Part shown: in pieces, positions 18,192-41,548 of the stretch | Position numbering within the stretch: position 1 is the stretch's first letter | Layout of the letters: each line of letters begins with the position of its first letter | Origin: Pollenia angustigena | Lineage: Eukaryota > Arthropoda > Insecta > Diptera > Polleniidae | Assembly: GCA_930367215.1 (NCBI GenBank) | Contig: OV884059.1 | Span: 99,746,993 to 99,810,992 of the forward strand | Direction: 5' to 3' | Length of the DNA stretch: 64,000 nucleotides | The notes under the pieces: model-generated | Seen by the model: only the letters and a program-made list of their open reading frames with translations | Database searches by the model: none | Told to the model about the DNA's origin: nothing | Translations under genes and position numbers: made by a program

Positions 18192-18417
18192 TATTGACGT
18201 CAGCAGTCGTCGATTGCTGCGAGTGTAAGACGGCAAATCCATCTGAGGAGATCGAGTGGTTGCGATCGAAACATGTCATGGTAACCTGCCGGCCGGGGTT
18301 CGAGCCCCAGCCACGTCAAGAATAAAAGATTATCAATAACAATTTTAATTAATTTTCATGTTGTAAAATTCCTTTCTTCATAAAAATAATTTAATGAAAA
18401 ATAAAATTTCATGAACT

Positions 18418-18425
18418 TAAGCCTA
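18418..18425 (+). repeat. 8-bp target-site duplication, left (TAAGCCTA)
   Basis: TAAGCCTA here is repeated at 41541-41548 directly outside the other end of the insertion. Unit A carries the uninterrupted site (AACTTAAGCCTAATTAAG near 9268), which proves this is a true target duplication of 8 bp. Confidence 0.93.
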
Positions 18426-20990
18426 GTAGTATGTTATTGCCCGTCCTACGGCACTTTTTCCATACAAATTTGGGATCATCCCTAGATGGGAGTATGTACA
18501 CATTTCTAATAGGAGGAGGTATAAATATGTTGTATTTGGCTCCCTAGAAAATATGATTCATGCCTGGATTTGAGTAAGTAGTTCTAATTGTGTAAGCAAA
18601 ATAATTTTTATTTATCCGTCTGTCCGTTTGAATGGCTGGTTTAAAAATAAAATAATTTGTGTTTGCATCTTTAAAATTTTTTTTGTATGTAACAAATGAG
18701 AATAAGTTAAACCCGTGTTTCCATCCCTGGGATGAAACTTTTTTTTGTAATTAAACCTTTTTAATTTTCGAATGTGGGATGATGCCTACGCTACGTTGGT
18801 TTGAGTCGGCATATATGATCGGTTGATCGGTTTGCTACGGTCGAGTTAATTAAGGTCATTAATTCATCTTTTGCTATATGTGTGAATGTTAATGCAACAC
18901 TAAAATGTTTAAGTCAATTTCTTATTGGAATCATCCCAGCACTACATTATATGTCTTATGAGATGACTGAGCCGTATATGTGTGTATATTAGACTACCTG
19001 ATCCATTTTAATTAAATGGACTACTCCCTGGACTGGTTCCAATGTAATGCAAGCATGGACCATATCATTCTTAAAAATTGTTTGTAGTAAGACGACATGT
19101 CTTCGATTTTTAACTACTTGTAATCCACAGCTGGGTTATATGGTCCTGCCACAGGACATCGTAATGTTAAATAGACCATGTTTTTACCTACGTTGGGGTT
19201 TCTTTTGGACTAGTCCTAGTCCCTTATGAGGCTTTATTTTACACGCGTGTTTGAACTAGTCCTACCATTTGCAGGGTTGCAATTTGTTAGCACCTCCACT
19301 TCTATTGTCTGTGTATGTGTGTGCGTGAATGTGGTTATCGTGGCTGTGTGTGTGTGTGTGTGTATATATGCAACTGTCGTGGTTGAGGTGCAGGGTGTTT
19401 GTTAGATGTTCGTAAAGAGTAGGGTGTGTGTAGATACAACCATGTCGGATGGTACATTTTTTGTAATATGAAACCCTTTTATTTTTCAAATAAATTGTAC
19501 ATACGTGACAAATTTAAATTTCATAAAGATTTTTTTTATAAAGTCCTTATTTCAAAATTCTTGAAAAAAACAAAGAAATTTGAGTATTAGTTGAGCAGAT
19601 GTGTAGGTGTTGTAATTTTTCATTATATGAAATAAAATAATGCAAGAATTAAAACTAAGAAAAACAATAAATAAATATTTTTTAAAACCTGCTGATTATA
19701 TCTTTTTATAATTGTCTTTTTTTGTAATATGAAACATTTTTATTTTTCGAATGAATTCTTCATTTGAACGTGATAAATTTAAATTTCATAAAGCTTTTTT
19801 TTATAACTGTCCTAATTAGGGTTTCTAATTTCCCGGGATTTTTCTATTCCCGGGAAACGAGACAAAAAAATCTTATTCCCGGGATTCTAAGAATAAAACA
19901 ATAGTTTTATTAAATGAGTTCAAGACAATTCAAAGGCTTTATAAAATTTTTTAGAATTTGATATAGCCTTTTCAAGATGATCTTTAAAGATAGTAGATGA
20001 TCATCATCTGGTGTTGGTGTGTCGTGTACATTTTTATTTTCGACTTTAAGAAGCTTTTTAGACATTTCATCATGAATTAAAAAGGACTATTGATTTATTG
20101 GCGTAGGGAAAGAAGTTTGATTTGTAAGCACTATTTAGTAAAGAATATATTGTTATTAATCGTTTTTGATGTTATCGATGATAAATTTCAAATTAAAATT
20201 TCAAAAATTTAATTTGAAATTCCCGAAAATTCCAGGAACAAAATTTACACACCCCCCCCCCCCCCCCCCCGGGATTTATTTAAAAAAGTCCCAGGATTCT
20301 TTCCCGCGTAGAAACTCTAGTCCTAATCTCAAAGTTCTTGGAAAAATAATGAAATATGAGTCATGCATAGGCAGGTGTTTACAATTCTTGGAAAAACAAA
20401 GAAGCCGCTGATGCTGCGGTTTTTGATTATATGAAATAAACTAATGCAATAATTTAAACTAAGAAAAAAATAAATAAATATTTTAAAAAATCTGCTAATT
20501 TTTTTGTAATATAAAACCTTTTTATTTTTCGAATGAATTCTACATATGTACGGACAAATTTAAATTTCATAAATCTTTTTTTTGAATGAGTCCTCATCTC
20601 AAAATTCTTGGAAAAACAATGAAATATGAGACATGCAAGTGCAGCTGTTTAGAATTCTTGGAAAAAACAAAGAAACCGCTGATGCTGCGGTTTTTGATTA
20701 GGACTGTAGTCTCAAAATTCTCAGAAAAACAAATTCTCGGAAAAACAAAGGAATATGAGACATGCAGATGTTTAGAATTCTTGGAAAAACAAAGAAACCG
20801 CTGATGTTGCGGTTTTTGATTATGTTTTTCTTCTTTATTAATTTTTGAGCTTTTGATTATATAAACTTATGTGACACTTACCCCTAACTTATTACTCCCC
20901 TCATCAACAATTTTGGATATTAATACGACTACTCCTGAGGAGACAGAATCATTCTTGTTCTGATAGTTAAATCAGTGTGTTCTATACTTA
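18426..20990. repeat. Terminal region of left arm: degenerate tandem repeats
   Basis: Non-coding. After about 530 bp of unique tip comes a truncated copy of the ACTAGTCC MITE (about 18990-19270), a (TG)n run (19345-19366), and then repeats of a roughly 250-bp module. The module starts TTTGTAATATGAAAC (about 19463, 19722, 20500; a weaker copy near 18750) and includes AATTCTTGGAAAAACAAAG and, in distal copies, CCGCTGATGCTGCGG stems (about 20405, 20672, 20798). The CCCGGGA module is embedded at 19820-20322, with a C19 run at 20252-20270. Short ORFs here are by-products. Confidence 0.6.
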
Positions 20991-20999
20991 AAAAGTGAA
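20960..20999 (+). promoter_or_regulatory. Possible initiator before the polymerase gene
   Basis: The 40 bp before the ATG contain ATCAGTGTG, which fits the arthropod initiator core TCAGT, and the start codon context GAAATGG is favourable. This is weak evidence; no transcript data are available. Confidence 0.25.
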
Positions 21000-23900
21000 A
21001 TGGCTGGCGGTTTTATTTGTGAGTTTTGTGATAAAGTATTCACTTTGAATACAAATTTAAGAAGACATGTTCGATTGCATCATGATGGACCATCATCATC
21101 GTTTAAATGCCAAACATGTAATTTACATTTTTCGGATCGTAAGGAATGGCACCGACACACACATTCTAATACAAAAGGTGACGACAATGATGAAGAAACT
21201 AATATTTACTGTGAAGATTGTGAAAAATATATAAAAAAAAACAAATTGGCATTACCATATAAGATCAAATGCACATAAACTTAACTGTGCTGGGAAAGCA
21301 GATAATAATAGTGATGTTAAATGCATAAAATCATCATTTAACAATAGAATTGTCACATTTTTAATTGAAAACAACAATAAAAATAATTTAATACCTGAAA
21401 AATTTTTAACGGAAATAAGAGAGAAATTAATAAAATTATTAACAGACACCATGCAAAAACACGGAAACATAAAATTTAATATGGAACTGTATGGTGAATA
21501 TGTGCTGATTAAGGAAGGTGAAGATTCTTGTATGGTGGATATAAAATCCCATCAGACTAAAATGAACATTCTTACTATGCTTTCAACAAGAGATGATATC
21601 CTAAATGTTTACAACGAACAATGTAATATTATAATAAAAAAGATGAGTGAATTTCAGGAGCGTGATAGTGGTTGGGCATTAATTGAAATAACACGTTTGG
21701 AGATGAATATAAATCAATATAAGTGTATCAGAGGATCACAATACCTTCCTTTACCAGCAAAAATAATGCAGAAAAAAGCATGTGTCAACGTACAAAATCG
21801 AGACGAGTACTGCTTCAAGTGGGCTATAATATCAGCACTATACCCAGTCGATCCTGATTATACAAAGAGATGTTCATCGTATAAAATAAATAATATTGAA
21901 GATGACATCATTTTGCTGAATAATGGAATCAAATTAAATTTCACCAACTTAAATTTCCCTCTTCCGATTAATCAAATAAAAGATTTCGAGATTATGAATC
22001 CTGAAATAAGTGTGAATGTGTTTGGACTAGAAGATGATGCTGTAGTGGGACCATACTACTTTACCAAAGAAGAAAAGTCCAAACACATCAACTTATTACT
22101 GCTAGAGGATGGTGAAAGATTCCATTATGTATGGATCAAAAATATTTCAAAGTAGGTTCACAATATTTATATTCTATTTATATATGAATATATTATATTA
22201 ATTTAAATCATTTTCTTTTTTCCTATTAATTACAGATTGCTAAGTAGTCAACTTACAAAACATGGAGATCAAGTATACATCTGCAATATATGCTTAATCC
22301 ATTTTCATACAGATACGTCGTTAATAAAACATAAAGAGGAATGTAATAAAATGGTTACAAGGATGCCTAGTATAGATAAAAGTAAGCTTAGTTTTAAAAA
22401 TTTTAAAAAGCAAATGGATGTGCCTTTTGTTGTATACGCTGATTTTGAATGTATTCTGGAAACAGTAAACATTCAAAATTCTAAGAACGTAAAATCAACA
22501 CAAAAGCATATTCCATTTGCTTATAGTTATTTTATTAAATGTTCGTATAACTCAGACTTAGATATTTTTAAAATTTATACTGGAACTGATGCGCCACGAC
22601 ATTTTTTTAAAACTTTAGTTGACGACATTTTAGCTATTTACACTAGTCATCTAAGTGTTATTAAACCAATGAATTCCTTAACACCCCTGCAACAGATACA
22701 ACATTATGAAAGCAAGACTTGTTATATTTGTACGAAATCTTTATCTAATGAAGATAAAGTAGCTGACCATTGTCATCTAACTGGTCAATATAGGGGTGCT
22801 GCTCATAATCAATGTAATTTAGAATATCAAATTACAAATTTCATCCCTATATTCTTTCATAATCTTTCGGCATATGATTGCCATCTGTTTGTAAGAGAGC
22901 TTTCAACAATTGAAGGCGATATAAATATTATACCTTTAAATAAGGAGCTTTATGTGTCTATATCAAAAAGAATTTCTATAAATGAAAAAGATACAATTGA
23001 GTTACGTTTTCTCGATTCATTTAGGTTTATGCCATCGAGTATAGCAAAATTAGCAAGTTATTTGTCCGACAGTGATTTAACGGTAGTAAAATCAAGCTAT
23101 CCAAATGATGAAGAATTTAATTTAATGAAACGTAAGGGTGTCTTTCCGTATGATTATTTAGATTCGATGAATCGTCTTGAAGAAATTCAATTACCACCTC
23201 GGTCAATATTTTTCAATAAATTAAATAATGAGTCGTGTAGTGTGGAGGATTATGAACATGCACAAAAAGTATGGAAAACATTTAAATGTAGAACATTAAA
23301 AGATTATCTACTTTTATATTTAAAAGTAGATATTCTTTTACTTTGCGATATATTTGAAAATTTCCGTAAAGTTTGTGCAAACATTTATAATTTAGATCCA
23401 TGTCAATATTATACTACCCCAGGTTTATCCTGGGATGCAATGTTGAAAACAACTGCAATAGAATTGGAGTTGTTGACTGATATTAATATATATAATTTTG
23501 TCCTTCGGGGCATTAGGGGAGGTATTGTTCAATGTTCTAATCGACATTCAATTGCTAATAACAAATATATTAGTGATTATGATTCTAACAAAGAATCAAA
23601 CTACTTAATATATTTAGATGTTAATAACTTGTATGGCTATGCAATGTCACAATACCTCCCCTATAAAAATTTTAAATGGGTTGAAAATTATAACCATTTC
23701 AACGTTAATAATATAGCAAAAGATTCTCCATTAGGATATATATTAGAGGTAGATCTAGAATATCCATCTACATTACACGACTATCATAATGATTTACCAT
23801 TTTGTGCTGAGAATAAAAAAATTGAAACCATGAAACAAAAGAAACTAATAACTGATTTAAATAGTAGAACTAATTACATAATACATTATCGAAATCTTCA

Positions 23901-24903
23901 GCAATGTATTCAACATGGTTTAGTTTTAAAGAAAATACATAGAATTCTTCAATTTGACCAATCAAATTGGTTACAAAAATATATTGATTTAAATAACCAT
24001 CACAGAACACTAGCAAAAAATTCATTTGAACAAAATTTTTTTAAATTGTTGAATAATGCAGTATACGGGAAAACTATGGAAAATGTTGATAAGAGGAAAG
24101 ACATTAAAATAGTATGTCAATGGGAGAATAGAGGAAAACGTTTAGGAGCCCGTGCTCTTATAGCTAAACCAAATTTCCATAGTTCACTTCAAATTCATGA
24201 AGATATGCATGCTATCCAAATGAATAGAATTAAAACTGAATACAACAAACCTATTTATGTTGGATTTGCAGTCTTAGAAATATCCAAATTTAAAATGTAT
24301 AGTTTTCATTATGATTACATAAAGCCTAAATATCGTGAAAACATTAAACTCAATTATATGGATACTGATTCCTTTATTTACGACATTAAAACAGATGATC
24401 TATACAGAGATATTAAAAACGACATAAATACTCATTTTGATACATCTGCATATCCGATAGATAATGTCTACAATATCCCACTTCTTAATAAAAAAGTTTT
24501 AGGGATGATGAAGGATGAGTGTAATGGTAAAATTATTAAGGAATTCATTGGGTTAAGAGCTAAAATGTACTCAGTGAAAATTGATAGAGAAGATAAGGAA
24601 ATTAAAAGAATTAAGGGCGTTAAGCATTGTGTAACCAGTAAATTAAGTATAAATGACTTTAGAAAATGTCTTTTAGAAAAAAAATTATACTATAATTCAA
24701 TGTATATATTTAGATCTAAGATACATCAAATTTATACTCAAAATATAAGAAAACTAACATTAAGTTATTTAGATGATAAGAGATTTATTAGAGATAATGG
24801 CGTTGATACTTTTGCATGGGGTCATTATAGAATAAATTACTATTCTGGACCTATGGAAGAGGATAACGACATTCTTCTCAATGTAAATATAGATTTTAAT
24901 TAA
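21000..24903 (+). CDS. C2H2 zinc-finger/family B DNA polymerase (left arm; one intron, one frameshift)
   Basis: DNA polymerase of the protein-primed (pPolB) type, expected to replicate the element. Exon 1 (21000-22151) encodes two C2H2 fingers (CEFC.., CQTC..) and a third (CEDC..). Exon 2 (22236-24903) encodes Exo I YADFEC (exon residues 68-72), an HNH/endonuclease VII-like motif (C162, C165, DHCH 177-180, YRG 185-187, C193N), Exo II NLSAYD (209-214), Exo III YLLLYLKVD (357-365), Pol A DVNNLYG (461-467), Pol B KLLNNAVYG (603-611), Pol C YMDTDS (707-712) and KMY (776-778). All catalytic residues needed are present. An A9 run at about 21233-21241 puts the first 92 codons out of frame with the rest; A8 would be in frame. 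Joined length would be near 1270 aa. A terminal protein domain is not visible. Confidence 0.85.
22152..22235 (+). other. 84-bp spliceosomal intron in the polymerase gene
   Basis: The donor is CAAA|GTAGGT and the acceptor is TTACAG|ATTG. The intron is AT-rich with a pyrimidine-rich tract (TTTTCTTTTTTCC) before the AG. Splicing joins codon AA|A and restores one frame from the zinc-finger part into the polymerase, while the unspliced frame stops at TAG 22153-22155. The same intron is kept in the right arm (37733-37816). Confidence 0.8.
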
Positions 24904-25164
24904 GTTTAAGTTTTTTAGATAATAAAAAAAATTGTAAATAAAAAAATTATGAAAAAAGAAGACATTAAAATGTTGTTTTTATTTCAAACCATATTTATTT
25001 AATAAAAATATTAAACAAAAAAAAAAAAAAAAAAAACCACAACTAACTCTAATCTTACCCCAAAAAAGCCTTGTTGTTGTTTTTATTTGTTTTTCTGTAT
25101 ATCTGGAGAACGGCAAGTGCCAAAGTTTCCAAATTAGATACAAAATATTGGTTTTATTACACCT
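24904..25164. other. 3' flank of polymerase gene with poly(A) run
   Basis: After the stop codon come AATAAAAA words and then an A21 run (25017-25037). The segment ends with a short unique stretch before the satellite. The A-run may reflect a polyadenylation remnant or simple expansion. The mirror run in the right arm has 22 T. Confidence 0.45.
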
Positions 25165-25465
25165 AATCTGCTTTCGATCTGCTTTTAATCAGCTTTTGAT
25201 CAGCTTTTGATCTGCTTTCGACCTGCTTTTGATCTGCTTTTGATCAGCTTTTGATCTGCTTTTGATCTGCTTTGTATCTGCTTTTGATCTGCTTTGTATC
25301 TGCTTTTGATCTGCTTTGTATCTGCTTTTGATCTGCTTTTGATCTGCTTTGTATCTGCTTTTGATCTGCTTTGTATCTGCTTTTGATCTGCTTTATATCT
25401 GCTTTTGATCTGCTTTGCATCTGCTTTTGATCTGCTTTATATCTGCTTTCGATCTGTTTTATATA
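25165..25465. repeat. 11-bp-period satellite (left arm)
   Basis: About 27 tandem copies of an 11-bp word of the type ATCTGCTTTTG, often alternating with ATCTGCTTTGT to give a 22-bp higher-order unit. It lies between the ends of the polymerase and ATPase genes, which converge on it. The period is close to one DNA helical turn. It is not coding in a useful frame. The mirror array is at 27390-27685. Confidence 0.85.
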
Positions 25466-25474
25466 TAATCTTAC

Positions 25475-26037
25475 TTATAATTGAATAAAATTATTAAATT
25501 CCTTTCTATAACGACCACCATTAATTGGATCTTCCATACTACCATCAATAAAACCATAATTATCTTTCCAACATTCCTTACAAATTGTTATAAACTGTTT
25601 AAATGACATATCACTGATAACATGATTATTAAATATATGCTTTAAATTCATTTCATCTTGTTTAAATATTATAATCATATTTGCATTATCACGTATCAAA
25701 TGTTTAGGAATTTTCGTAGATGTTTGACATAATACAATCTATATGTTTATATCTACCCATACAAAAGTAATCTCTTACAGTGTCTTGTATACCACAAATT
25801 ACATCATCGAATGTTATTATAGAGTGTGGATTTGCTTTAGCTGGACTTAAAACTTTTTCATTTTCCGAGAATGTAAATAGATTTTGAATATATGTATATG
25901 TTTTTCAAACAAAGACCATTAGGACTTTCTATAAGACTAATCATTACATAAGTCTTACGACAGTTTGATGGTTCAACAATTAATGCTGTTATTGAGCTTG
26001 GTAATAGTGTGCTATGTACAATATTAGCTTTTTTCAT
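25475..26037 (-). pseudogene. A32-type packaging ATPase relic (left arm)
   Basis: The minus strand reads, from 26037 down, MKKANIV..., then a degenerate P-loop VEPSNCRKTYVM (a canonical loop would have Gly where E and R stand), then IYIYSKS, a Walker B-like IITFDDVICG, RDYFCMGRYKHID, an LCQTSTKIPKHLIRDNAN segment and a C-terminal KECWKDNYGF...NGGRYRKEF. Two frame disruptions (near 25860 and near 25725) split it into three pieces. The motif order matches FtsK/HerA-family genome-packaging ATPases of Polintons and related viruses. The lost P-loop glycines and broken frames mean it cannot work as it stands. The same lesions occur in the right arm. Confidence 0.75.
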
Positions 26038-26646
26038 TTTTATCCAAATAAAATAGATGAAACTGTTAAAGATGTTGAAACTAAAATACAACTGCTAACA
26101 AATAAAATTAACCATGCTATCGTTAATAACATAGAAAAGCTGTATAAAGATGTTGAAGTCATTACCACTGCTAACAAAGATTTCGAAAAGAAAATATCAG
26201 ACTTAAAAAATGAAATTAATCAAGCTATCGTTAATAACATTGAAAAGTTCTATAAAGATGTAGAAGCTATTAGTATTGCCATTCCAAATCATATAAAGAA
26301 GGAGGAAAATGTTATTGAACAATCAGTTGAGAAACAAATATTAAAAGTAAATAAAGAATATATGAAAAAAGTGGATGAAAGAGTTAATAAAGTAGAAGAA
26401 TATATTTTAAAATTGGATGGCATAGATGAAAGATTTAACAATATTGAAGATTACCTTTTTAAAAATATTGATAAACGTCCTCCGATAAAGATAAAACAAT
26501 ATACATATGTGTCTATATATATTTGGAATAATAATAAGATTTTCCTCCTTCTTTATATGATTTGGAATGGCAATACTAATAGCTTCTACATCTTTATAGA
26601 ACTTTTCAATGTTATTAACGATAGCTTGATTAATTTCATTTTTTAA
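26014..26646 (+). CDS. Coiled-coil ORF running through the palindrome centre (210 aa)
   Basis: Residues about 14-165 are heptad-rich and charged, with an internal duplication (INHAIVNNIEKLYKDVEVI followed by INQAIVNNIEKFYKDVEAI). It begins divergently from, and overlaps, the ATPase start. The frame crosses the left-arm end (26310), continues coding-like through the loop to about 26538, and then reads antisense into the right arm, so the natural C-terminus has been lost. The function is unknown; coiled-coil proteins of viruses include fibre and structural proteins, but nothing here decides that. Confidence 0.5.
   Translation: MYNISFFHFYPNKIDETVKDVETKIQLLTNKINHAIVNNIEKLYKDVEVITTANKDFEKKISDLKNEINQAIVNNIEKFYKDVEAISIAIPNHIKKEENVIEQSVEKQILKVNKEYMKKVDERVNKVEEYILKLDGIDERFNNIEDYLFKNIDKRPPIKIKQYTYVSIYIWNNNKIFLLLYMIWNGNTNSFYIFIELFNVINDSLINFIF
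26311..26538. other. 228-bp asymmetric loop at the palindrome centre
   Basis: The only part of the element without an inverted partner. It carries the continuation of the coiled-coil frame from the left arm. Next to the arm ends a short inverted match (TTATT 26312-26316 with AATAA 26533-26537) lies one mismatch beyond the arms, consistent with microhomology at a template switch. Confidence 0.85.
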
Positions 26647-26835
26647 GTCTGATATTTTCTTTTCGAAATCTTTGTTAGCAGTGGTAATGACTTCAACATC
26701 TTTATACAGCTTTTCTATGTTATTAACGATAGCATGGTTAATTTTATTTGTTAGCAGTTGTATTTTAGTTTCAACATCTTTAACAGTTTCATCTATTTTA
26801 TTTGGATAAAAATGAAAAAAGCTAATATTGTACAT
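26407..26835 (-). pseudogene. Mirror copy of the coiled-coil ORF (right arm, truncated)
   Basis: Identical to the first 100 or so residues of the plus-strand ORF starting at 26014, then diverging at the arm/loop border (26539) into unrelated residues. This copy lacks the downstream coil that the left copy keeps in the loop, so it looks like the derived, truncated one. Confidence 0.55.
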
Positions 26836-27374
26836 AGCACACTATTACCAAGCTCAATAACAGCATTAATTGTTGAACCATCAAACTGTCGTAAGACTTA
26901 TGTAATGATTAGTCTTATAGAAAGTCCTAATGGTCTTTGTTTGAAAAACATATACATATATTCAAAATCTATTTACATTCTCGGAAAATGAAAAAGTTTT
27001 AAGTCCAGCTAAAGCAAATCCACACTCTATAATAACATTCGATGATGTAATTTGTGGTATACAAGACACTGTAAGAGATTACTTTTGTATGGGTAGATAT
27101 AAACATATAGATTGTATTATGTCAAACATCTACGAAAATTCCTAAACATTTGATACGTGATAATGCAAATATGATTATAATATTTAAACAAGATGAAATG
27201 AATTTAAAGCATATATTTAATAATCATGTTATCAGTGATATGTCATTTAAACAGTTTATAACAATTTGTAAGGAATGTTGGAAAGATAATTATGGTTTTA
27301 TTGATGGTAGTATGGAAGATCCAATTAATGGTGGTCGTTATAGAAAGGAATTTAATAATTTTATTCAATTATAA
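26812..27374 (+). pseudogene. A32-type packaging ATPase relic (right arm)
   Basis: Mirror copy of 25475-26037 with the same degenerate P-loop and the same frame disruptions. Because both arms share every lesion, the gene was already broken before the arms were duplicated, or the arms have since been homogenised. Confidence 0.75.
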
Positions 27375-27389
27375 GTAAGATTATATATA

Positions 27390-27685
27390 AAACAGATCGA
27401 AAGCAGATATAAAGCAGATCAAAAGCAGATGCAAAGCAGATCAAAAGCAGATATAAAGCAGATCAAAAGCAGATACAAAGCAGATCAAAAGCAGATACAA
27501 AGCAGATCAAAAGCAGATCAAAAGCAGATACAAAGCAGATCAAAAGCAGATACAAAGCAGATCAAAAGCAGATACAAAGCAGATCAAAAGCAGATCAAAA
27601 GCTGATCAAAAGCAGATCAAAAGCAGGTCGAAAGCAGATCAAAAGCTGATCAAAAGCTGATTAAAAGCAGATCGAAAGCAGATTA
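27390..27685. repeat. 11-bp-period satellite (right arm)
   Basis: Mirror of the left-arm array, here read as AAAGCAGATCA-type words. Copy number appears equal to the left array by eye. Confidence 0.85.
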
Positions 27686-27947
27686 GGTGTAATAAAACCA
27701 ATATTTTGTATCTAATTTGGAAACTTTGGCACTTGCCGTTCTCCAGATATACAGAAAAACAAATAAAAACAACAACAAGGCTTTTTTGGGGTAAGATTAG
27801 AGTTAGTTGTGGTTTTTTTTTTTTTTTTTTTTTTGTTTAATATTTTTATTAAATAAATATGGTTTGAAATAAAAACAACATTTTAATGTCTTCTTTTTTC
27901 ATAATTTTTTTATTTACAATTTTTTTTATTATCTAAAAAACTTAAAC

Positions 27948-30418: not shown

Positions 30419-31333
30419 AGTTAAGGAACGGTCTAATGTGATGATAGTAAAATGCAAATACGAATCTTACTCTTGTTACTACGCAAACATTTTCATTGAT
30501 CTTCTCTTTCATTGATATTTTATGATCCGTTATTGCTTTAGCAATAGTAAAATAAGTTATTCACTTTTTAATTCATACTCTTGTTACTACGCAAACATTT
30601 TCATTGATCTTCTCTTTCATTGATATTTTATGATCCGTTATTGCTTTAGCAATAGTAAAAGAAATTATTCATTGTTTTTTATTCATTGAAAATAAAAGTC
30701 AGTCAGATCTCGATCTCGTTAAAGCAAAGACAAAGTTTCTAACTATCGTAGAAATTATTAAAGGAAATTAATTAAATTTAAAAAGAATGAACTTAAAATA
30801 AAATGCAAAAGTGTAAAATTTAAGTGAATGAAAAAATTTAAAATTAGAATTTAACTAATGAAGAAAAATATTAAAATTAAATTGGAAAGGATAAACTTAA
30901 GTAAAATAAAATTATAGAAGAGATAAACTTAAAGTAAAATAAAATTTAAAACTATGAAATGTAAATGTTAATGACAAAAGAAAGTTAAAATTAAATTTAA
31001 TAAAAGGCCATAGAAATCTACATAGTAGAAAGGTAAAAATATAAAAACTTAAAATTTGAACTACTTAAAACAATTTAAATTAGACTAATAAAAACTAAAT
31101 TTAATAAGAATACCTTTAAAATTAAAAACTAAATTTAATAAGAATACTTTTAAAATTCTACATAGTGGAAGGAAATAAAATACGAAAGAGCTAAAAATTA
31201 GAATCACTAAATTCAATTTAAATTAGTGTGATAAGAAATTAAAAAGAACTTTAATAAACTAAAATATAACTTCAATCAAATATAAAAAGGCTTTTATTGC
31301 TCAGGATGGACCATTCACACTTAAAAATTAATT
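30419..31333 (+). repeat. 5' LTR (915 bp)
   Basis: Begins AGTTAAGGAACGGTC and ends TTAATT. It contains a 108-bp tandem duplication (30469 and 30577, starting ACTCTTGTTACTACGC). The AT-rich R/U5 side has TATAAAAAGG-like words near 31280. Confidence 0.92.
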
Positions 31334-31346
31334 GGCGCCCAACGTG
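31333..31346 (+). other. Primer binding site, tRNA-Lys type
   Basis: TGGCGCCCAACGTG is complementary to the 3' end of insect tRNA-Lys, with its first T overlapping the last LTR base, as in gypsy-type elements. The complementarity to tRNA-Lys is from general knowledge of the tRNA 3' sequence. Confidence 0.8.
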
Positions 31347-32076
31347 ATTAACCAAAAAAAAAAATACCACAACAATAACAAAACCGTGTTCAAAATTAAA
31401 ATTGTTTTAATATAAAAGAAGATTAATATAGTTTTAATAAATTCCAAATATCATGAGACTTCTAACAAACTAAGCAAATTCTTTTAACCAAATAAAAACA
31501 AATCCCAAACAACACCATTGTCGCCAACATTGTCCATCGCCCAACAAGCCAGAGGTAGAAGTAGTTGACCGTTTAATCAAACCACCAGCATCGGGGTAAC
31601 TAATTTAAAGGCTAAGCCAAATAGGAACCAGCACCATTGGTCATAAATTTTTTTTAGTAATATAAAGGTATTATATTTCGTACTATAAATTAAATTAGTA
31701 CTAAGTTAACATTTAAAATTGTGAACGGCAGGGAGAAAAATATTTATAGATATTTTTATTTTATTATAAATATAAATTATATTTGACTAAAAATTCAAAA
31801 TCAAAAATTATTAAAAAAAATAGAGTTGCAAAAAGAGGACATTAAAAAAATATATTTTTCTCTCTTCTTAAAAACTAAATTTAAATTAAACAAAACTTAA
31901 TTTATTTTAAAAAAAGTAATAATTACCTACGTTGAGTTAGAAGCCCGTCTTTGCTATTAATTAACAATAAAGAATAAGATGATACGAAAATATTTTCGGG
32001 TGTAATTTTTCTCCTTTTTCGTGGCTAAAAACTCTAAACTCTTTGACGTATAGTGCTGATTATAGATTAGTTATTT
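31347..32076 (+). other. Leader between primer site and gag
   Basis: About 730 bp of AT-rich untranslated leader without a long ORF. It probably holds packaging and dimerisation signals, but none can be pinpointed by eye. Confidence 0.4.
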
Positions 32077-33513
32077 ATGAACTGCCTTGGGAAAACCATT
32101 GAAGACATTGATAGGACTATTAATCTACTTCAAGGCCTTGACATTAACGACGGAAAAACAAAACGGGAAACCATGGACGAACAGGCTTTACGGGCGATTG
32201 TTAATAGTGCTGTTACGCAGGCAACAGAACGGACCCGATCAGAGTTTCGGAACGTAGTTGACCAGTTAAATGCAAGAATTGATGCTCTTCAACCCCCATC
32301 TGCTGCAGAAGAATACAAAGATATCGAAATCACTGAAGGTGTAGAGTGCGACGAACCGCTTGACATTGTTAAGTCTCTCCCCGAGTTTAAAGGCGAAGGT
32401 TTTAGGTATATTTCTTGGCGTCAAGCCGCGGTTACAGCCCACAAATTGTTTGAGCGATATCAGGGTAGTTCCAAATACTATCAGGCTGTCGCCATAATAA
32501 GAAATAAAATTGTAGGGAGGGCAGACTCTGTTTTAAGTAGCTACAATACTGTTTTGAACTTCTATGCCATACTTAATAGATTAGATTTTGCGTACTCTGA
32601 TAAAACTTCTATTTACACATTAGAGCAAGAACTTTCAACCTTAAGACAAGGCCAAAGGCCTATAATTGAATTTTATAGTGACATTGAAAGTAAACTAACC
32701 TCCATAATAAACAAGGTTATAATGTCTTATGAGGGAGATTCTACATTGATTCAGTCCCTTAACCAGAAATATAGGATGGATGCACTCCGAGTTTTTATTT
32801 CGGGTCTCAATAAACCCCTATGCGATACCTTGTTTGCATGTAGACCAGTAGATCTGCCTACTGCTTTGGCGATGGCGCAGGAATTAGAAACAAACCAAAA
32901 TAGGTATCGTTTTGCAACAATTTATAATAACGGGCTCGGCAGCGTGCAGCAGGGATATTTTCAGCAGACGCACTCAGGGTTTCATAACTTAAATGCTTCT
33001 GTTCGTAATATCCAGCCATCTAGTTATTACCAGAGACCACCAATTAGAAACTCACTTTCACACAGTCAAGTCCAACAACAGCAGTATGTTCAGCCACAAC
33101 AGTTTTACCCAACGCCCTCTCCGTTTTATCCGAAACCACCAGTGGGAAACCCGTCTTTTAGCAATCAAATGCGACAACCTTTTATTCAGCCACGACAATT
33201 TCACTCCAAGTCCCAATCGAACTCTCGAGTAGACTGCCGGCCACCAAATGTCCAAAGCCATAATTTACCCCATTCACAGGCATTAGATTCTGATGTCAGT
33301 ATGCGTACGCTCAGGTCTACAGCCGGACCAACTTTTCAGAATAGGCAAATCGTAAATCATCTAGAGCATGAAGAGCAACCGGAGCACTCATGGGAGGAGG
33401 AATCAAACCTTATCAATTTTCGGGAAAACCAAACCGGACAAGACATATCCTTCGAAGATGAGATACATTTTTTAGGGGTAACTCAGTCCTTCCCTACATC
33501 GAAGGAAAAATAG
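32077..33513 (+). CDS. Gag polyprotein of the LTR element (478 aa)
   Basis: Structural protein of the virus-like particle. The central part (about residues 100-285, LPEFKGEGFRYISW to LAMAQELE) has the helical capsid-like pattern of gypsy/errantivirus Gag. The region about 290-400 is Q/P/S-rich. No CCHC zinc knuckle is present, as is common in errantiviral Gag. The frame is intact. Its end overlaps pol by about 50 bp, including a slippery heptamer. Confidence 0.85.
   Translation: MNCLGKTIEDIDRTINLLQGLDINDGKTKRETMDEQALRAIVNSAVTQATERTRSEFRNVVDQLNARIDALQPPSAAEEYKDIEITEGVECDEPLDIVKSLPEFKGEGFRYISWRQAAVTAHKLFERYQGSSKYYQAVAIIRNKIVGRADSVLSSYNTVLNFYAILNRLDFAYSDKTSIYTLEQELSTLRQGQRPIIEFYSDIESKLTSIINKVIMSYEGDSTLIQSLNQKYRMDALRVFISGLNKPLCDTLFACRPVDLPTALAMAQELETNQNRYRFATIYNNGLGSVQQGYFQQTHSGFHNLNASVRNIQPSSYYQRPPIRNSLSHSQVQQQQYVQPQQFYPTPSPFYPKPPVGNPSFSNQMRQPFIQPRQFHSKSQSNSRVDCRPPNVQSHNLPHSQALDSDVSMRTLRSTAGPTFQNRQIVNHLEHEEQPEHSWEEESNLINFRENQTGQDISFEDEIHFLGVTQSFPTSKEK
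33468..33474 (+). promoter_or_regulatory. -1 ribosomal frameshift site TTTTTTA
   Basis: In the gag frame the bases read T TTT TTA, a canonical slippery heptamer, 39 bp before the gag stop. Pol is open in the -1 frame from just upstream (its last stop is TGA at 33459-33461). A downstream pseudoknot was not assessed. Confidence 0.7.
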
Positions 33514-36500
33514 GGGGTAATAATATTAAACTTTTGGTGGATACTGGATCTACCAAAAGTTATTTAAAAAACATTAGGAATCTAAAAGGTATAAAGAAAC
33601 TTTCAAGGCCCTTTCTAGTAAAATCGGTGCATGGAGCTAGCAGAATTGACCACTCAACTGTGGTAAATGTATTTAACAGAACTGAAACATTTTACATACT
33701 AGAAAATTTACCAATATTCGATGGTATAGTGGGTTTTAACTTCATTAAAAAAATAAATGGGATAATCGATACGGGTAAAAATATAATGTTTTTCGAAGGG
33801 GGGCACGAAACGTTAAAGTACTTGAATCTAGACGCAACAAATAACTTGACGCTGGACACAATTCCGAAAAATATTGAAGGGGAATTTTACAATATAATTC
33901 ATGAAAATTCGGCGGTCTTTGCGAATCCTAATGAAGCCCTTCCTTACAACACCAAAATATCGGCGACAATTAGAACAAAAGATGAGGAACCAATATATTC
34001 CAGATACCAATCGTACCCAATCTCAATGATTGATTTTGTTAACAAGGAGGTAGAAGAACTCCTAAGGAATGGTATAATAAGACCATCGCGTTCTCCTTAT
34101 AATAGCCCAGTTTGGGTAGTAGAAAAAAAAGGGTTCGACGAATTCGGTAATCCTAATAAACGTCTTGTGTTCGATTTTACGAAATTAAACTCGAAGACTA
34201 TTTGCGACAAATACCCTATTCCTGATCCCTCTATCATTATGGCGAATCTTGGAAGAGCAAAGTTTTTTACAACACTGGATTTAAAGAGTGGTTTTCACCA
34301 AATCAACTTAATTGAGCGTGATAGGGAAAAAACCGCTTTCAGTGTGAATAACGGTAAATACGAATTTTGCCGCTTGCCGTTTGGCTTGAAAAATGCGCCA
34401 AGCATTTTCCAACGCGCCATCGATGATATTTTGCGGGAAGAGATAGGAAAGTGTTGTCATGTCTACATTGATGACATCATAATATTTTCCGACTCTGAGC
34501 GGAATCATATATATGATATCAACAAAATTTTTAAAAAATTGCTTAATGCAAACATGCGCGTATCATTGGAGAAATCTAAGTTTTTTAAAACCTCCGTGGA
34601 ATATCTCGGGTTTATTGTCTCAACTAAGGGTATTAAAACGTGCCCAAGTAAGGTTGAGGCTATAGTTAATTACGAAATCCCTTCTACTTTGAGAGGACTT
34701 AGATCGTTCCTGGGACTCGCAGGTTATTATAGGCGATTCGTAAAGGATTATGCATCTATCGCGAAGCCATTAACCAAATACTTACGAGGAGAGAATGGTC
34801 ATATAGGCGCTCGACAATCAAAGTTAATTAAAATCGAATTGGATAGGGAAGCTTTAGCCGCATTTAAAAAGTTAAAGAAGCTGCTTGCCTCTGAGGATGT
34901 CCTACTTCTGTACCCTAATTTCCAAAAACCATTCGATCTTACGACGGACGCGTCCTCTCATGCAATTGGTGCAGTTCTTTCACAAGGTGGACGTCCAATT
35001 ACGATGATTTCAAGGACCCTGTCACCAGCAGAAGAGAATTACGCCACCAATGAAAGGGAGCTATTGGCGATTGTATGGGCACTTAAGTCACTTCGACACT
35101 ACCTTTATGGAACAAAAAACCTAAATATTTTTACAGACCACCAACCCTTGACCTTTTCCGTATCTGACAGAAACCCAAATTCAAAAATTAAGCGCTGGAA
35201 AGCATTTATTGAAGAGTATTCACCATCGTTCTTTTACAAACCGGGTAGAGATAACGTCGTTGCGGACGCTTTATCGAGACAATTTTTAAATATGGCAGCA
35301 GATTTAGAATCATCGGCTTCTATTCAAGCCTGTGCTAGTGAGATATCACTTACTGAAGTTATACCTAGTGTTGAGAATCCAGTAAATTCTTTTAGAAACC
35401 AAATTATCCTTATCAAGGAAAACTTCGTAAAGAAAGAAACAAAAGTAATATTTAGAGACCGTATCCGTCATCGAATCTCATACAGAACTATTGAAGACCT
35501 TTTAGACTCGATTCATACATCAATAAGCCCTCATGTTGTAAATGCAATACATTGTGACTTACACAGTCTGGCACAAATACAGCATTTTTTGATATCAAAT
35601 TATCCTTCGGTCAAATTCCGATATACTAAAAAGTTTGTCACCGACATATTAAATCCAAGTGACCAATTGGAAATACTTAACAACGAACACAACAGGGCTC
35701 ATCGATCCCTTAGGGAAAATACCCACCAAATTCTCCAAGATTATTACTTTCCCAATATTAAGAAAGAATTGAAGCGTATCATAGCAACTTGTAAGACATG
35801 TCAGGAAGCAAAATACTCGAGGCACCCACAGAGACAGGAAATAGCCGCAACCCCAATACCTTCTTCCATAGGAGAAATACTTCACATTGACATTTACAAT
35901 ACGAACAAACTTTTCTTTTTAACTTGCTTGGACAAGTTTTCTAAATTCGCTGTTGTTAAGCCTATTGCTTCAAGGGCTATCATTGATGTAAGGCCAGCAC
36001 TTTTGGAAACATTAAATTTTTTCGGGAACACAAGGGTAGTAGTATGCGACAACGAAAAGTCTCTTAACTCTGAGACAGTTAGATCGATGGTTAAAAATAA
36101 CTTTGGTGCCGATATCTATGCAATTCCACCCCTCCATAGCACATCCAATGGGCAAGTGGAACGCTTTCATAGCACATTGGCAGAAATCGCAAGATGTCTT
36201 AGATTAGACGACAACTCCACCGATCCACTCGACCTTATTCTCATTGCCACATCGAAATATAATAGGACAATTCACTCCACTGTTGGAATGAGACCTATCG
36301 ACATAATCCAGGCTATACCACAGGACTTAAGGGAAAAAGTCCAGTCGAGAATTACGGCTAAACAGAACTCCGACTTAAATTACCATAACAGAAACACAAC
36401 CACAAGGACATACAATCCCGGAGATAAGGTCTATGTGAGAGTCAACAAGCGTTTAGGGAATAAATTTAGTAAGGTCTTCAATGAAAAGATAGTCCAACAA

Positions 36501-36599
36501 GACTTGGGGACCACACTTAAAATCGACAACAGAATTGTTCATAAAGACAGTATTAAATTTCTTGCCTCGGCCTATAATGTTTCAGACGGGGACGTCTGA
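33468..36599 (+). CDS. Pol polyprotein (protease-RT-RNase H-integrase)
   Basis: Enzymes for reverse transcription and integration, expected to be made by -1 frameshifting from gag, so there is no ATG of its own. Domains in order: aspartic protease with VDTGS (33537-33551); reverse transcriptase with the catalytic YIDD (about 34462-34473); RNase H with TDASSHAIG (about 34940) and TDHQPL; integrase zinc-binding HNRAH...CKTC (about 35690-35800); and the integrase core D (HIDIYN, about 35885), D (VVCDNE, about 36045), E (GQVERFH, about 36155). No stop or frameshift was seen. The order RT-RNaseH-IN is Ty3/gypsy-type. Confidence 0.92.
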   Translation, partial: FFRGNSVLPYIEGKIGGNNIKLLVDTGSTKSYLKNIRNLKGIKKLSRPFLVKSVHGASRIDHSTVVNVFNRTETFYILENLPIFDGIVGFNFIKKINGIIDTGKNIMFFEGGHETLKYLNLDATNNLTLDTIPKNIEGEFYNIIHENSAVFANPNEALPYNTKISATIRTKDEEPIYSRYQSYPISMIDFVNKEVEELLRNGIIRPSRSPYNSPVWVVEKKGFDEFGNPNKRLVFDFTKLNSKTICDKYPIPDPSIIMANLGRAKFFTTLDLKSGFHQINLIERDREKTAFSVNNGKYEFCRLPFGLKNAPSIFQRAIDDILREEIGKCCHVYIDDIIIFSDSERNHIYDINKIFKKLLNANMRVSLEKSKFFKTSVEYLGFIVSTKGIKTCPSKVEAIVNYEIPSTLRGLRSFLGLAGYYRRFVKDYASIAKPLTKYLRGENGHIGARQSKLIKIELDREALAAFKKLKKLLASEDVLLLYPNFQKPFDLTTDASSHAIGAVLSQGGRPITMISRTLSPAEENYATNERELLAIVWALKSLRHYLYGTKNLNIFTDHQPLTFSVSDRNPNSKIKRWKAFIEEYSPSFFYKPGRDNVVADALSRQFLNMAADLESSASIQACASEISLTEVIPSVENPVNSFRNQIILIKENFVKKETKVIFRDRIRHRISYRTIEDLLDSIHTSISPHVVNAIHCDLHSLAQIQHFLISNYPSVKFRYTKKFVTDILNPSDQLEILNNEHNRAHRSLRENTHQILQDYYFPNIKKELKRIIATCKTCQEAKYSRHPQRQEIAATPIPSSIGEILHIDIYNTNKLFFLTCLDKFSKFAVVKPIASRAIIDVRPALLETLNFFGNTRVVVCDNEKSLNSETVRSMVKNNFGADIYAIPPLHSTSNGQVERFHSTLAEIARCLRLDDNSTDPLDLILIATSKYNRTIHSTVGMRPIDIIQAIPQDLREKVQSRITAKQNSDLNYHNRNTTTRTYNPGDKVYVRVNKRLGNKFSKVFNEKIVQQDLGTTLKIDNRIVHKDSIKFLASAYNVSDGDV

Positions 36600-36604
36600 A
36601 TCTT

Positions 36605-36615
36605 AAAAGGGGGAG
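36605..36615 (+). other. Polypurine tract
   Basis: AAAAGGGGGAG lies one base before the 3' LTR (36617) and just after the pol stop. It is the plus-strand primer site for reverse transcription. Confidence 0.85.
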
Positions 36616-36616
36616 T

Positions 36617-37531
36617 AGTTAAGGAACGGTCTAATGTGATGATAGTAAAATGCAAATACGAATCTTACTCTTGTTACTACGCAAACATTTTCATTGATCT
36701 TCTCTTTCATTGATATTTTATGATCCGTTATTGCTTTAGCAATAGTAAAATAAGTTATTCACTTTTTAATTCATACTCTTGTTACTACGCAAACATTTTC
36801 ATTGATCTTCTCTTTCATTGATATTTTATGATCCGTTATTGCTTTAGCAATAGTAAAAGAAATTATTCATTGTTTTTTATTCATTGAAAATAAAAGTCAG
36901 TCAGATCTCGATCTCGTTAAAGCAAAGACAAAGTTTCTAACTATCGTAGAAATTATTAAAGGAAATTAATTAAATTTAAAAAGAATGAACTTAAAATAAA
37001 ATGCAAAAGTGTAAAATTTAAGTGAATGAAAAAATTTAAAATTAGAATTTAACTAATGAAGAAAAATATTAAAATTAAATTGGAAAGGATAAACTTAAGT
37101 AAAATAAAATTATAGAAGAGATAAACTTAAAGTAAAATAAAATTTAAAACTATGAAATGTAAATGTTAATGACAAAAGAAAGTTAAAATTAAATTTAATA
37201 AAAGGCCATAGAAATCTACATAGTAGAAAGGTAAAAATATAAAAACTTAAAATTTGAACTACTTAAAACAATTTAAATTAGACTAATAAAAACTAAATTT
37301 AATAAGAATACCTTTAAAATTAAAAACTAAATTTAATAAGAATACTTTTAAAATTCTACATAGTGGAAGGAAATAAAATACGAAAGAGCTAAAAATTAGA
37401 ATCACTAAATTCAATTTAAATTAGTGTGATAAGAAATTAAAAAGAACTTTAATAAACTAAAATATAACTTCAATCAAATATAAAAAGGCTTTTATTGCTC
37501 AGGATGGACCATTCACACTTAAAAATTAATT
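36617..37531 (+). repeat. 3' LTR (915 bp)
   Basis: Same length as, and apparently identical to, the 5' LTR, including the 108-bp duplication (36667 and 36775). It is followed by the TATA target duplicate at 37532-37535. Confidence 0.92.
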
Positions 37532-38967
37532 TATACAACAAAAGGCACATCCATTTGCTTTTTAAAATTTTTAAAACTAAGCTTACTTTTATCTATACTA
37601 GGCATCCTTGTAACCATTTTATTACATTCCTCTTTATGTTTTATTAACGATGTATCTGTATGAAAATGGATTAAGCATATATTGCAGATGTATACTTGAT
37701 CTCCATGTTTTGTAAGTTGACTACTTAGCAATCTGTAATTAATAGGAAAAAAGAAAATGATTTAAATTAATATAATATATTCATATATAAATAGAATATA
37801 AATATTGTGAACCTACTTTGAAATATTTTTGATCCATACATAATGGAATCTTTCACCATCCTCTAGCAGTAATAAGTTGATGTGTTTGGACTTTTCTTCT
37901 TTGGTAAAGTAGTATGGTCCCACTACAGCATCATCTTCTAGTCCAAACACATTCACACTTATTTCAGGATTCATAATCTCGAAATCTTTTATTTGATTAA
38001 TCGGAAGAGGGAAATTTAAGTTGGTGAAATTTAATTTGATTCCATTATTCAGCAAAATGATGTCATCTTCAATATTATTTATTTTATACGATGAACATCT
38101 CTTTGTATAATCAGGATCGACTGGGTATAGTGCTGATATTATAGCCCACATGAAGCAGTACTCGTCTCGATTTTGTACGTTGACACATGCTTTTTTCTGC
38201 ATTATTTTTGCTGGTAAAGGAAGGTATTGTGATCCTCTGATACACTTATATTGATTTATATTCATCTCCAAACGTGTTATTTCAATTAATGCCCAACCAC
38301 TATCACGCTCCTGAACTCACTCATCTTTTTTATTATAATATTACATTGTTCGTTGTAAACATTTAGGATATCATCTCTTGTTGAAAGCATAGTAAGAATG
38401 TTCATTTTAGTCTGATGGGATTTTATATCCACCATACAAGAATCTTCACCTTCCTTAATCAGCACATATTCACCATACAGTTCCATATTAAATTTTATGT
38501 TTCCGTGTTTTTGCATGGTGTCTGTTAATAATTTTATTAATTTCTCTCTTATTTCCGTTAAAAATTTTTCAGGTATTAAATTATTTTTATTGTTGTTTTC
38601 AATTAAAAATGTGACAATTCTATTGTTAAATGATGATTTTATGCATTTAACATCACTATTATTATCTGCTTTCCCAGCACAGTTAAGTTTATGTGCATTT
38701 GATCTTATATGGTAATGCCAATTTGTTTTTTTTTATATATTTTTCACAATCTTCACAGTAAATATTAGTTTCTTCATCATTGTCGTCACCTTTTGTATTA
38801 GAATGTGTGTGTCGGTGCCATTCCTTACGATCCGAAAAATGTAAATTACATGTTTGGCATTTAAACGATGATGATGGTCCATCATGATGCAATCGAACAT
38901 GTCTTCTTAAATTTGTATTCAAAGTGAATACTTTATCACAAAACTCACAAATAAAACCGCCAGCCAT
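37532..38967 (-). pseudogene. Polymerase gene, right arm, 5' portion
   Basis: Contains exon 1 (38967 down to 37817), the intron (37816-37733) and the first codons of exon 2 up to the LTR insertion inside Exo I. Besides the shared A9 frameshift (T9 on the plus strand near 38726-38734), it carries its own 1-bp deletion near 38314 (GAGTTCAGG against GAATTTCAGG on the left), which splits the 234-codon frame. This copy is dead three times over. Confidence 0.85.
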
Positions 38968-41540
38968 TTCACTTTTTAAGTATAGAACACACTGATTTAA
39001 CTATCAGAACAAGAATGATTCTGTCTCCTCAGGAGTAGTCGTATTTATATCCAAAATTGTTGATGAGGGGAGTAATAAGTTAGGGGTAAGTGTCACATAA
39101 GTTTATATAATCAAAAGCTCAAAAATTAATAAAGAAGAAAAACATAATCAAAAACCGCAACATCAGCGGTTTCTTTGTTTTTCCAAGAATTCTAAACATC
39201 TGCATGTCTCATATTCCTTTGTTTTTCCGAGAATTTGTTTTTCTGAGAATTTTGAGACTACAGTCCTAATCAAAAACCGCAGCATCAGCGGTTTCTTTGT
39301 TTTTTCCAAGAATTCTAAACAGCTGCACTTGCATGTCTCATATTTCATTGTTTTTCCAAGAATTTTGAGATGAGGACTCATTCAAAAAAAAGATTTATGA
39401 AATTTAAATTTGTCCGTACATATGTAGAATTCATTCGAAAAATAAAAAGGTTTTATATTACAAAAAAATTAGCAGATTTTTTAAAATATTTATTTATTTT
39501 TTTCTTAGTTTAAATTATTGCATTAGTTTATTTCATATAATCAAAAACCGCAGCATCAGCGGCTTCTTTGTTTTTCCAAGAATTGTAAACACCTGCCTAT
39601 GCATGACTCATATTTCATTATTTTTCCAAGAACTTTGAGATTAGGACTAGAGTTTCTACGCGGGAAAGAATCCTGGGACTTTTTTAAATAAATCCCGGGG
39701 GGGGGGGGGGGTGTGTAAAATTTGTTCCTGGAATTTTCGGGAATTTCAAATTAAATTTTTTGAAATTTTAATTTGAAATTTATCATCGATAACATCAAAA
39801 ACGATTAATAACAATATATTCTTTACTAAATAGTGCTTACAAATCAAACTTCTTTCCCTACGCCAATAAATCAATAGTCCTTTTTAATTCATGATGAAAT
39901 GTCTAAAAAGCTTCTTAAAGTCGAAAATAAAAATGTACACGACACACCAACACCAGATGATGATCATCTACTATCTTTAAAGATCATCTTGAAAAGGCTA
40001 TATCAAATTCTAAAAAATTTTATAAAGCCTTTGAATTGTCTTGAACTCATTTAATAAAACTATTGTTTTATTCTTAGAATCCCGGGAATAAGATTTTTTT
40101 GTCTCGTTTCCCGGGAATAGAAAAATCCCGGGAAATTAGAAACCCTAATTAGGACAGTTATAAAAAAAAGCTTTATGAAATTTAAATTTATCACGTTCAA
40201 ATGAAGAATTCATTCGAAAAATAAAAATGTTTCATATTACAAAAAAAAGACAATTATAAAAAGATATAATCAGCAGGTTTTAAAAAATATTTATTTATTG
40301 TTTTTCTTAGTTTTAATTCTTGCATTATTTTATTTCATATAATGAAAAATTACAACACCTACACATCTGCTCAACTAATACTCAAATTTCTTTGTTTTTT
40401 TCAAGAATTTTGAAATAAGGACTTTATAAAAAAAATCTTTATGAAATTTAAATTTGTCACGTATGTACAATTTATTTGAAAAATAAAAGGGTTTCATATT
40501 ACAAAAAATGTACCATCCGACATGGTTGTATCTACACACACCCTACTCTTTACGAACATCTAACAAACACCCTGCACCTCAACCACGACAGTTGCATATA
40601 TACACACACACACACACACAGCCACGATAACCACATTCACGCACACACATACACAGACAATAGAAGTGGAGGTGCTAACAAATTGCAACCCTGCAAATGA
40701 TAGGACTAGTTCAAACACGCGTGTAAAATAAAGCCTCATAAGGGACTAGGACTAGTCCAAAAGAAACCCCAACGTAGGTAAAAACATGGTCTATTAAACA
40801 TTACGATGTCCTGTGGCAGGACCATATAACCCAGCTGTGGATTACAAGTAGTTAAAAATCGAAGACATGTCGTCTTACTACAAACAATTTTTAAGAATGA
40901 TATGGTCCATGCTTGCATTACATTGGAACCAGTCCAGGGAGTAGTCCATTTAATTAAAATGGATCAGGTAGTCTAATATACACACATATACGGCTCAGTC
41001 ATCTCATAAGACATATAATGTAGTGCTGGGATGATTCCAATAAGAAATTGACTTAAACATTTTAGTGTTGCATTAACATTCACACATATAGCAAAAGATG
41101 AATTAATGACCTTAATTAACTCGACCGTAGCAAACCGATCAACCGATCATATATGCCGACTCAAACCAACGTAGCGTAGGCATCATCCCACATTCGAAAA
41201 TTAAAAAGGTTTAATTACAAAAAAAAAGTTTCATCCCAGGGATGGAAACACGGGTTTAACTTATTCTCATTTGTTACATACAAAAAAAATTTTAAAGATG
41301 CAAACACAAATTATTTTATTTTTAAACCAGCCATTCAAACGGACAGACGGATAAATAAAAATTATTTTGCTTACACAATTAGAACTACTTACTCAAATCC
41401 AGGCATGAATCATATTTTCTAGGGAGCCAAATACAACATATTTATACCTCCTCTTATTAGAAATGTGTACATACTCCCATCTAGGGATGATCCCAAATTT
41501 GTATGGAAAAAGTGCCGTAGGACGGGCAATAACATACTAC
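38968..41540. repeat. Terminal region of right arm: degenerate tandem repeats
   Basis: Mirror of 18426-20990. Same TTTGTAATATGAAAC-type modules, CCGCATCAGCGG-like stems, CCCGGGA module (39647-40145), (CA)n run (about 40600-40620) and truncated ACTAGTCC MITE (40690-40960). The G-run near 39697 is 15 long, against C19 on the left. Confidence 0.6.
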
Positions 41541-41548
41541 TAAGCCTA
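41541..41548 (+). repeat. 8-bp target-site duplication, right (TAAGCCTA)
   Basis: Exact partner of 18418-18425. Sequence of unit B resumes directly after it. Confidence 0.93.

Follow-up and report, generated by a model that had tools for sequence, protein, structure and literature searches.

A palindromic element occupies positions 18425-41541 (23,117 bp) of a 64,000-nucleotide stretch of the genome of the fly Pollenia angustigena (GenBank assembly GCA_930367215.1, contig OV884059.1, positions 99,746,993 to 99,810,992 of the forward strand), here called the window, to which all coordinates refer. On each of its two arms the element carries a gene for a predicted type B DNA polymerase (PolB) of the protein-primed kind. 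It is somewhat more probably than otherwise a non-autonomous derivative of an insect Maverick (also called Polinton) that folded back on itself before integration and was inserted by an integrase acting in trans. The element is largely explained as a Maverick derivative; the whole-element palindrome is its unusual and new part.

Self-comparison of the window and alignment of the arms showed that the outer pieces (18426-22436 and 37532-41540) match over 4006 aligned bases with 8 substitutions and 5 insertions or deletions (indels), and that the inner pieces (22433-26316 and 26533-30418) match over 3884 aligned bases with 3 substitutions and 1 indel, 4 bases falling in both alignments. With the target duplication included, the outer repeats span 18417-22436 and 37532-41549. 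Altogether, two arms of 7.9 kb, differing by 11 substitutions and 6 indels, enclose a 216-bp loop. The palindrome described in an earlier note on this DNA is thus real, and its tips are exact complements as that note had it; with up to three mismatches allowed, a 22-bp tip occurs in the window at the two ends of the element only, and was not encountered in 100 shuffled sequences. The further statement that nearly the entire element is inverted repeat holds for the arms but not for 30419-37531, which is a long terminal repeat (LTR) retrotransposon, nor for the loop, which is present in a single copy. Without the LTR element and its extra TATA, the element proper amounts to 16,000 of the 23,117 bp.

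The polymerase gene of each arm reads from the tip inward. Its large frame is open from 22207, the coding part probably beginning at about 22236, and is in phase with the preceding frame across a probable GT-AG intron of 84 bp (22152-22235), which is predicted from splice motifs and from homologues that read straight across it. The upstream frame with C2H2 zinc fingers goes out of frame at a run of nine A residues (21233-21241); the corresponding right-arm frame is of the same length, and the apparent frameshift is therefore common to both arms. The right-arm copy additionally contains a 1-base indel within the gene and is split by the LTR element. Among 7983 candidates scored against the large frame, 5936 were relatives at E<=0.001. 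Many of the 120 relatives listed are named insect proteins, several of which carry PF03175, which we take to be DNA_pol_B_2, or PF02945 (endonuclease VII); the best named relatives among the matches listed are from Lucilia and Stomoxys, and by its nearest proteins the host resembles a calyptrate fly. Alignment with 15 relatives picked from these 120 revealed many invariant columns, including DTDS, presumably polymerase motif C. Sequence comparison with the PDB returned E values of 0.17 and 0.63 only. The best AlphaFold model (mean pLDDT 82.8, followed by 82.3 and 78.8) matched phi29 DNA polymerase in its first nine PDB hits (E 1.5e-17 to 1.2e-15; the next hit 2.2e-07). A comparison with PHROGs recovered endonuclease VII (best 1.7e-07) plus weak matches, and a search of the phages collection with PolB gave no match. 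The PolB gene proposed in the earlier note is thereby confirmed, at the level of prediction, by homologues, conserved motifs and modelled fold, and the enzyme is predicted to be a protein-primed PolB of the Maverick type.

The boundaries of the element allow a similar reading. At the left boundary the sequence is T AAGCCT A GTAGTATG, at the right boundary CATACTAC T AAGCCT A. As TA stands at both the beginning and the end of the target, three placements of the boundary are equivalent, giving a duplication of 8 bp (TAAGCCTA, element ends GTAGTATG), 6 bp (AAGCCT, element ends AGTAGTATG) or 4 bp (element ends TAGTAGTATG). A perfect 8-bp duplication, as reported earlier, can indeed be read, but it is one of these three. 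Moving the boundary by one base yields the 6-bp reading, in which AAGCCT flanks both sides and the element begins and ends 5'-AGTAGT...ACTACT-3'; the readings with 8 and 4 bp are no less perfect, and 6 bp is therefore compatible and not forced. The chance of finding six given bases at one position is about 0.0003, and several-fold more if the other published motifs and the choice of boundaries are counted; the chance that a 6-bp target also permits an 8-bp reading is about 0.12. Vertebrate Mavericks make 6-bp duplications and have 5'-(AGT)2//(ACT)2-3' as their commonest end motif, besides two other end motifs (PMC8097293). Nothing in the sequence of the fly element conflicts with this Maverick signature, and 6 bp is the most probable length of the duplication. 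The proposal that a Polinton relative had adopted another integration route was rejected, as the 6-bp reading with AGTAGT ends fits equally well; its classification as a Polinton relative finds support in the polymerase, the end motif and the 6-bp reading. More generally, where the terminal bases of a target coincide with those of the element, a duplication that looks like 8 bp may in fact be one of 6 bp.

The empty site recognised in the earlier note is also present, within a duplicate of the flank that matches 567 bp of the left flank at 99.5% and 2309 bp of the right flank at 99.6%. The flank forms an 8.8-kb tandem duplication (units 2819-11578 and 11575-43849, with a 4-base overlap, AAAC, at the seam), the element lying within the second unit and being absent from the first. 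This repeat is either a true duplication or two haplotypes placed end to end. With 12620-12669 and 17860-18192, which are extra in the second unit, left out of the alignment, the units (together 2819-18425 and 41541-43849) differ at 49 of 8760 aligned bases (0.56%). Divergence between the arms is lower (11/7890 versus 49/8760 substitutions; Fisher p 3e-06), and the arms therefore separated, or were last homogenised by conversion, after the units did. The LTR element lies in the right arm. Its two LTRs (30419-31333 and 36617-37531) are 915 bp each and identical, it is flanked by a 4-bp target duplication, TATA, and its G+C content of about 39% is above that of its surroundings. It has frames at 32077-33513 (478 residues) and 33786-36599 (937 residues), one of which has reverse transcriptase, RNase H and integrase domains, in an order that we take to be that of Gypsy elements. 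It is a very recent insertion and, being in one arm only, was inserted after the palindrome had formed.

In the element frames tested, no Pfam match to integrase (rve or other), ATPase, protease or capsid domains was found, the rve match at 33786-36599 belonging to the LTR element; nor was there a match to a transposase of the hAT, MULE, P or Merlin class. The A32-type ATPase to which the earlier note alluded was rejected as a component of the element, since the Walker-A pattern is absent from all six frames of 18425-26640. With no integrase, ATPase, protease or capsid gene found in what was tested, the element is filed as a non-autonomous derivative rather than as an autonomous Maverick. At its centre, a frame of 212 residues has no relative at E<=0.001 among 1737 candidates and is perhaps a gene cut by the formation of the palindrome.

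To account for these features, we infer a fold-back step, its timing before integration and an integrase provided in trans. A linear Maverick copy undergoing protein-primed replication by PolB would have stalled about 8.1 kb from its polymerase-bearing end. The new strand would then have folded back at a short imperfect inverted repeat and been extended to its own start, and the resulting hairpin would have become a linear inverted dimer of 16 kb, bounded on both sides by an authentic terminus and devoid of the integrase, ATPase, protease and capsid genes. Such a dimer, lacking an integrase, would need one in trans; that of an intact relative could have inserted it with the normal 6-bp duplication, and a Gypsy-type element would later have jumped into the right arm. 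At the inner ends of the arms, AAAATgTTATT and AATAAgATTTT form an 11-bp inverted repeat with one mismatch, which is one of the 11 arm substitutions; this repeat could be a residue of priming by the growing strand on itself. The probability that any arm substitution falls 6 bp or less from the inner end is 0.8%, as calculated post hoc. The single-copy loop and the central frame, which runs from the arm into the loop, were also counted in favour of fold-back. The earlier note had argued from the duplication at both arm tips that the palindromic form itself inserted. This is possible and is the reading preferred here, but the flanking duplication is no proof of it, because Mavericks already end in inverted repeats, and copying one half in place, beginning at the opposite terminus, would yield identical flanks.

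Several observations weigh against fold-back before integration or weaken its support. First, the palindromic form is known from one copy, that in the window, so that its mobility is a supposition, and the integrase in trans is a hypothetical supply rather than an observed one. Second, the frameshift at the A9 run and two stretches resembling dispersed repeats are common to both arms and lean mildly toward a progenitor already resident in the chromosome. Third, substitutions are not distributed differently along the arms, whether the terminal 1.4 kb is set against the remainder (3/1400 versus 8/6490, p 0.42) or the outer against the inner part (8/4006 versus 3/3884, p 0.23), and therefore favour neither order of palindrome formation and insertion. 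Fourth, the (AGT)2 motif is known from vertebrate Mavericks and two other vertebrate motifs exist, so that the probability of a chance match is several times the 0.0003 given above. Fifth, no Pfam polymerase model matched the large frame, even at E<=10, where just endonuclease VII and weak finger matches were returned, and two of the five AlphaFold models were poor (mean pLDDT 63.6 and 53.6). Finally, the Pfam scan covered 16 of the 45 pieces of at least 45 residues in 18425-26640, together with four mirrored right-arm pieces.

The shared frameshift and repeats would suit another origin, which appears rather unlikely but deserves serious consideration, namely that the palindrome arose in place. 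Here, an ordinary Maverick with short terminal repeats would have inserted first, and a break in its right half would have been mended by synthesis that began at the left terminal repeat and ran inward, the joint being closed by short homology and the right half becoming an inverted copy of the left. The terminal inverted repeats would supply the necessary homology, and identical flanks, the duplication and a loop would all be expected. Such copying predicts that the original terminal repeat is at least as diverged as the copied part, and the comparison of the terminal 1.4 kb with the remaining arms neither supports nor excludes this. If the flank repeat is a true duplication, however, its empty unit makes the insertion the later event, which leaves little time for both insertion and repair. 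A further explanation, which overlaps with fold-back before integration and which we regard as improbable as it stands, is that the palindrome is the inherited form of a standing family of PolB-only elements, satellites of Mavericks. The Maverick-type ends on both sides and the length of about 16 kb agree with this, and polymerase genes of this type, whatever their setting, are very numerous, as the count of relatives above shows; yet the form is represented by a single copy, and no exact match to the tip was found in viral contigs.

That a transposon of another class (hAT, MULE, P, Merlin or fold-back) captured viral replication genes, as the earlier note had also suggested, is very improbable. 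The hAT, MULE, P and Merlin elements make duplications of 8 or 9 bp, and Fold-back (FB) transposons combine very long inverted repeats with internal short tandem repeats, being of MULE type with 9-bp duplications and no PolB. The perfect 8-bp reading of TAAGCCTA would be in keeping with such an origin, a transposase being supplied in trans, and so would the great length of the terminal repeats and the 11-bp tandem repeats inside the arms of the fly element, features reminiscent of FB elements. No transposase was matched in the frames tested, however, the polymerase is predicted to be of the Maverick type, and the 8-bp duplication is not forced, the 6-bp reading yielding the Maverick end motif against the odds already given. 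Lastly, palindromic reads are a known artefact of long-read sequencing, but such an origin, whether from a self-folded read or from an arm duplicated in assembly, is scarcely credible here and was rejected, given the differences between the arms, the LTR element with its own duplication in one arm only, and the flank that continues on both sides with a matching target duplication.

Table 1. Features of the palindromic element and its insertion site (window coordinates; a dot marks features given without strand).
Feature	Position	Strand	Remarks
Empty site TAAGCCTA	9271..9278	.	In tandem duplicate of flank
Left target-site duplication AAGCCT (6-bp reading)	18419..18424	.	8-bp reading TAAGCCTA at 18418-18425
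Left arm	18425..26316	+	Starts 5'-AGTAGTATG; self-comparison and arm alignment
Outer arm: terminal repeat followed by repeat-rich DNA with no recognised gene	18425..20966	.	
Two C2H2 zinc fingers, N-terminal part of polymerase gene	20967..21275	+	Pfam zf-C2H2, 5.9e-07
Polymerase gene, N-terminal region	21235..22152	+	
Predicted protein-primed-type DNA polymerase B with endonuclease-VII zinc insert	22207-24900	+	PF02945, relatives, motifs, AlphaFold model
11-bp tandem repeat (ATCTGCTTTTG), about 27 copies, inner arm beyond polymerase gene	25166..25460, mirror 27389-27683	.	
Frame of 212 residues, left arm through loop into right arm	26008..26643	+	Weak Pfam matches only, several of them to coiled-coil families
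Candidate fold-back junction, left side	26306..26316	+	Imperfect 11-bp inverted repeat, one mismatch at 26311
Loop, single copy	26317..26532	.	216 bp
Right arm, inner part	26533..30418	-	Second polymerase frame 27951-30560, of which the portion past 30418 is LTR element
Candidate fold-back junction, right side	26533..26543	-	Mismatch at 26538
Gypsy-type LTR retrotransposon, later insertion outside element proper	30419..37531	+	7113 bp, right arm only
Right arm, outer part	37532..41541	-	Ends ACTACT-3'
Right target-site duplication AAGCCT	41542..41547	.	

The repeat-like stretches of the outer arm (18988-19275 and 19999-20355) resemble dispersed repeats of the flank at 69-71% over about 360-380 columns. 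One dispersed repeat, resembling a miniature inverted-repeat transposable element, lies at 3152-3511 and 11913-12270, has ends that resemble inverted CCTGCAAATAA/TTATTTGCAGG, and recurs as a diverged stretch in both arms (18988-19275). Elsewhere in the window, frames at 4420-6270, 13234-15084 and 56257-58086 encode 609-616 residues; the two that were scanned show weak matches to ligand-gated ion channels, below the Pfam cut-off, and the three are perhaps divergent ionotropic-receptor genes of the fly, as far as sequence can suggest. For the flanking receptor-like gene, the only match at E<=1e-50 was in Calliphora vicina (54% identity over 55%). Diverged tandem repeats spaced at about 153 bp form an array at 60080-60952, which has an inverted relative at 62127-62433.

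To the best of our knowledge, ideas on how Mavericks replicate and excise derive largely from the genes they carry. If the interpretation is true, a palindrome with natural ends, a fold-back junction and a normal duplication would record in the genome that replication took place extrachromosomally by protein-primed strand displacement and that an integrase acted in trans. It may tentatively be proposed, although we consider it on the whole doubtful, that animal Mavericks are copied extrachromosomally, as linear DNA with protein priming, and shed palindromic snap-back satellites of packaging size with two natural ends, which integrate in trans and are able to persist as PolB-only parasites of Mavericks.

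The element resembles animal Mavericks, including Sf Maverick 1 and 2, in its PolB with an endonuclease-VII domain, and one of the possible readings of its duplication gives their 6 bp; Spodoptera Maverick polymerases are reported to have POLB2 together with a weak endonuclease-VII match (PMC5803895). In vertebrate Mavericks, sizes range from 12.7 to 24.6 kb and terminal repeats from 46 to 1447 bp (PMC8097293). The fly element, at 16.0 kb, lies inside this size range and in its 6-bp reading shares the (AGT)2//(ACT)2 ends, whereas its arms of 7.9 kb exceed the terminal repeats of that vertebrate range, and it differs from Mavericks in that the pieces tested yielded no gene for an integrase, ATPase, protease or capsid. 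A scan of viral contigs for close relatives came back empty, and the polymerase alignment, used as query, found two contigs, L001 (IMGVR_UViG_3300028392_002905) and L002. L001 encodes a related PolB, which matches query residues 10-877, reaches 38% identity in the best segment and has endonuclease-VII and C2H2 matches below the Pfam cut-off. Unlike the fly element, it gave hits to an integrase core (rve, 6.7e-08) and, weakly, to a capsid in the 6 of 13 listed frames scanned, its PolB gene adjoining the integrase on the opposite strand (L001:8819-13648), and no inverted repeat was found within 14,949 of its 17,398 bases. In L002, 4 of 10 listed frames were scanned and none gave an integrase.

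No report of a palindromic or snap-back Maverick was met among the matches listed in the openly licensed PMC literature, which was represented mostly by titles and the beginnings of abstracts. Parallels come from snap-back derivatives of protein-primed replicons, with which the fly element shares the same natural terminus at both ends and a loop bounded by a short inverted repeat. In the copy-back or snap-back defective genomes of adenoviruses and other viruses, the growing strand folds back, genes are lost and the ends become alike, although these genomes are not chromosomal insertions. Similarly, a protein-primed linear plasmid of yeast, the subject of work by Kikuchi and colleagues in 1985, reportedly gave rise to a hairpin or palindromic derivative in which either side bears the same natural end; this derivative is cytoplasmic and not integrated, in contrast to the chromosomal palindrome of P. 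angustigena.

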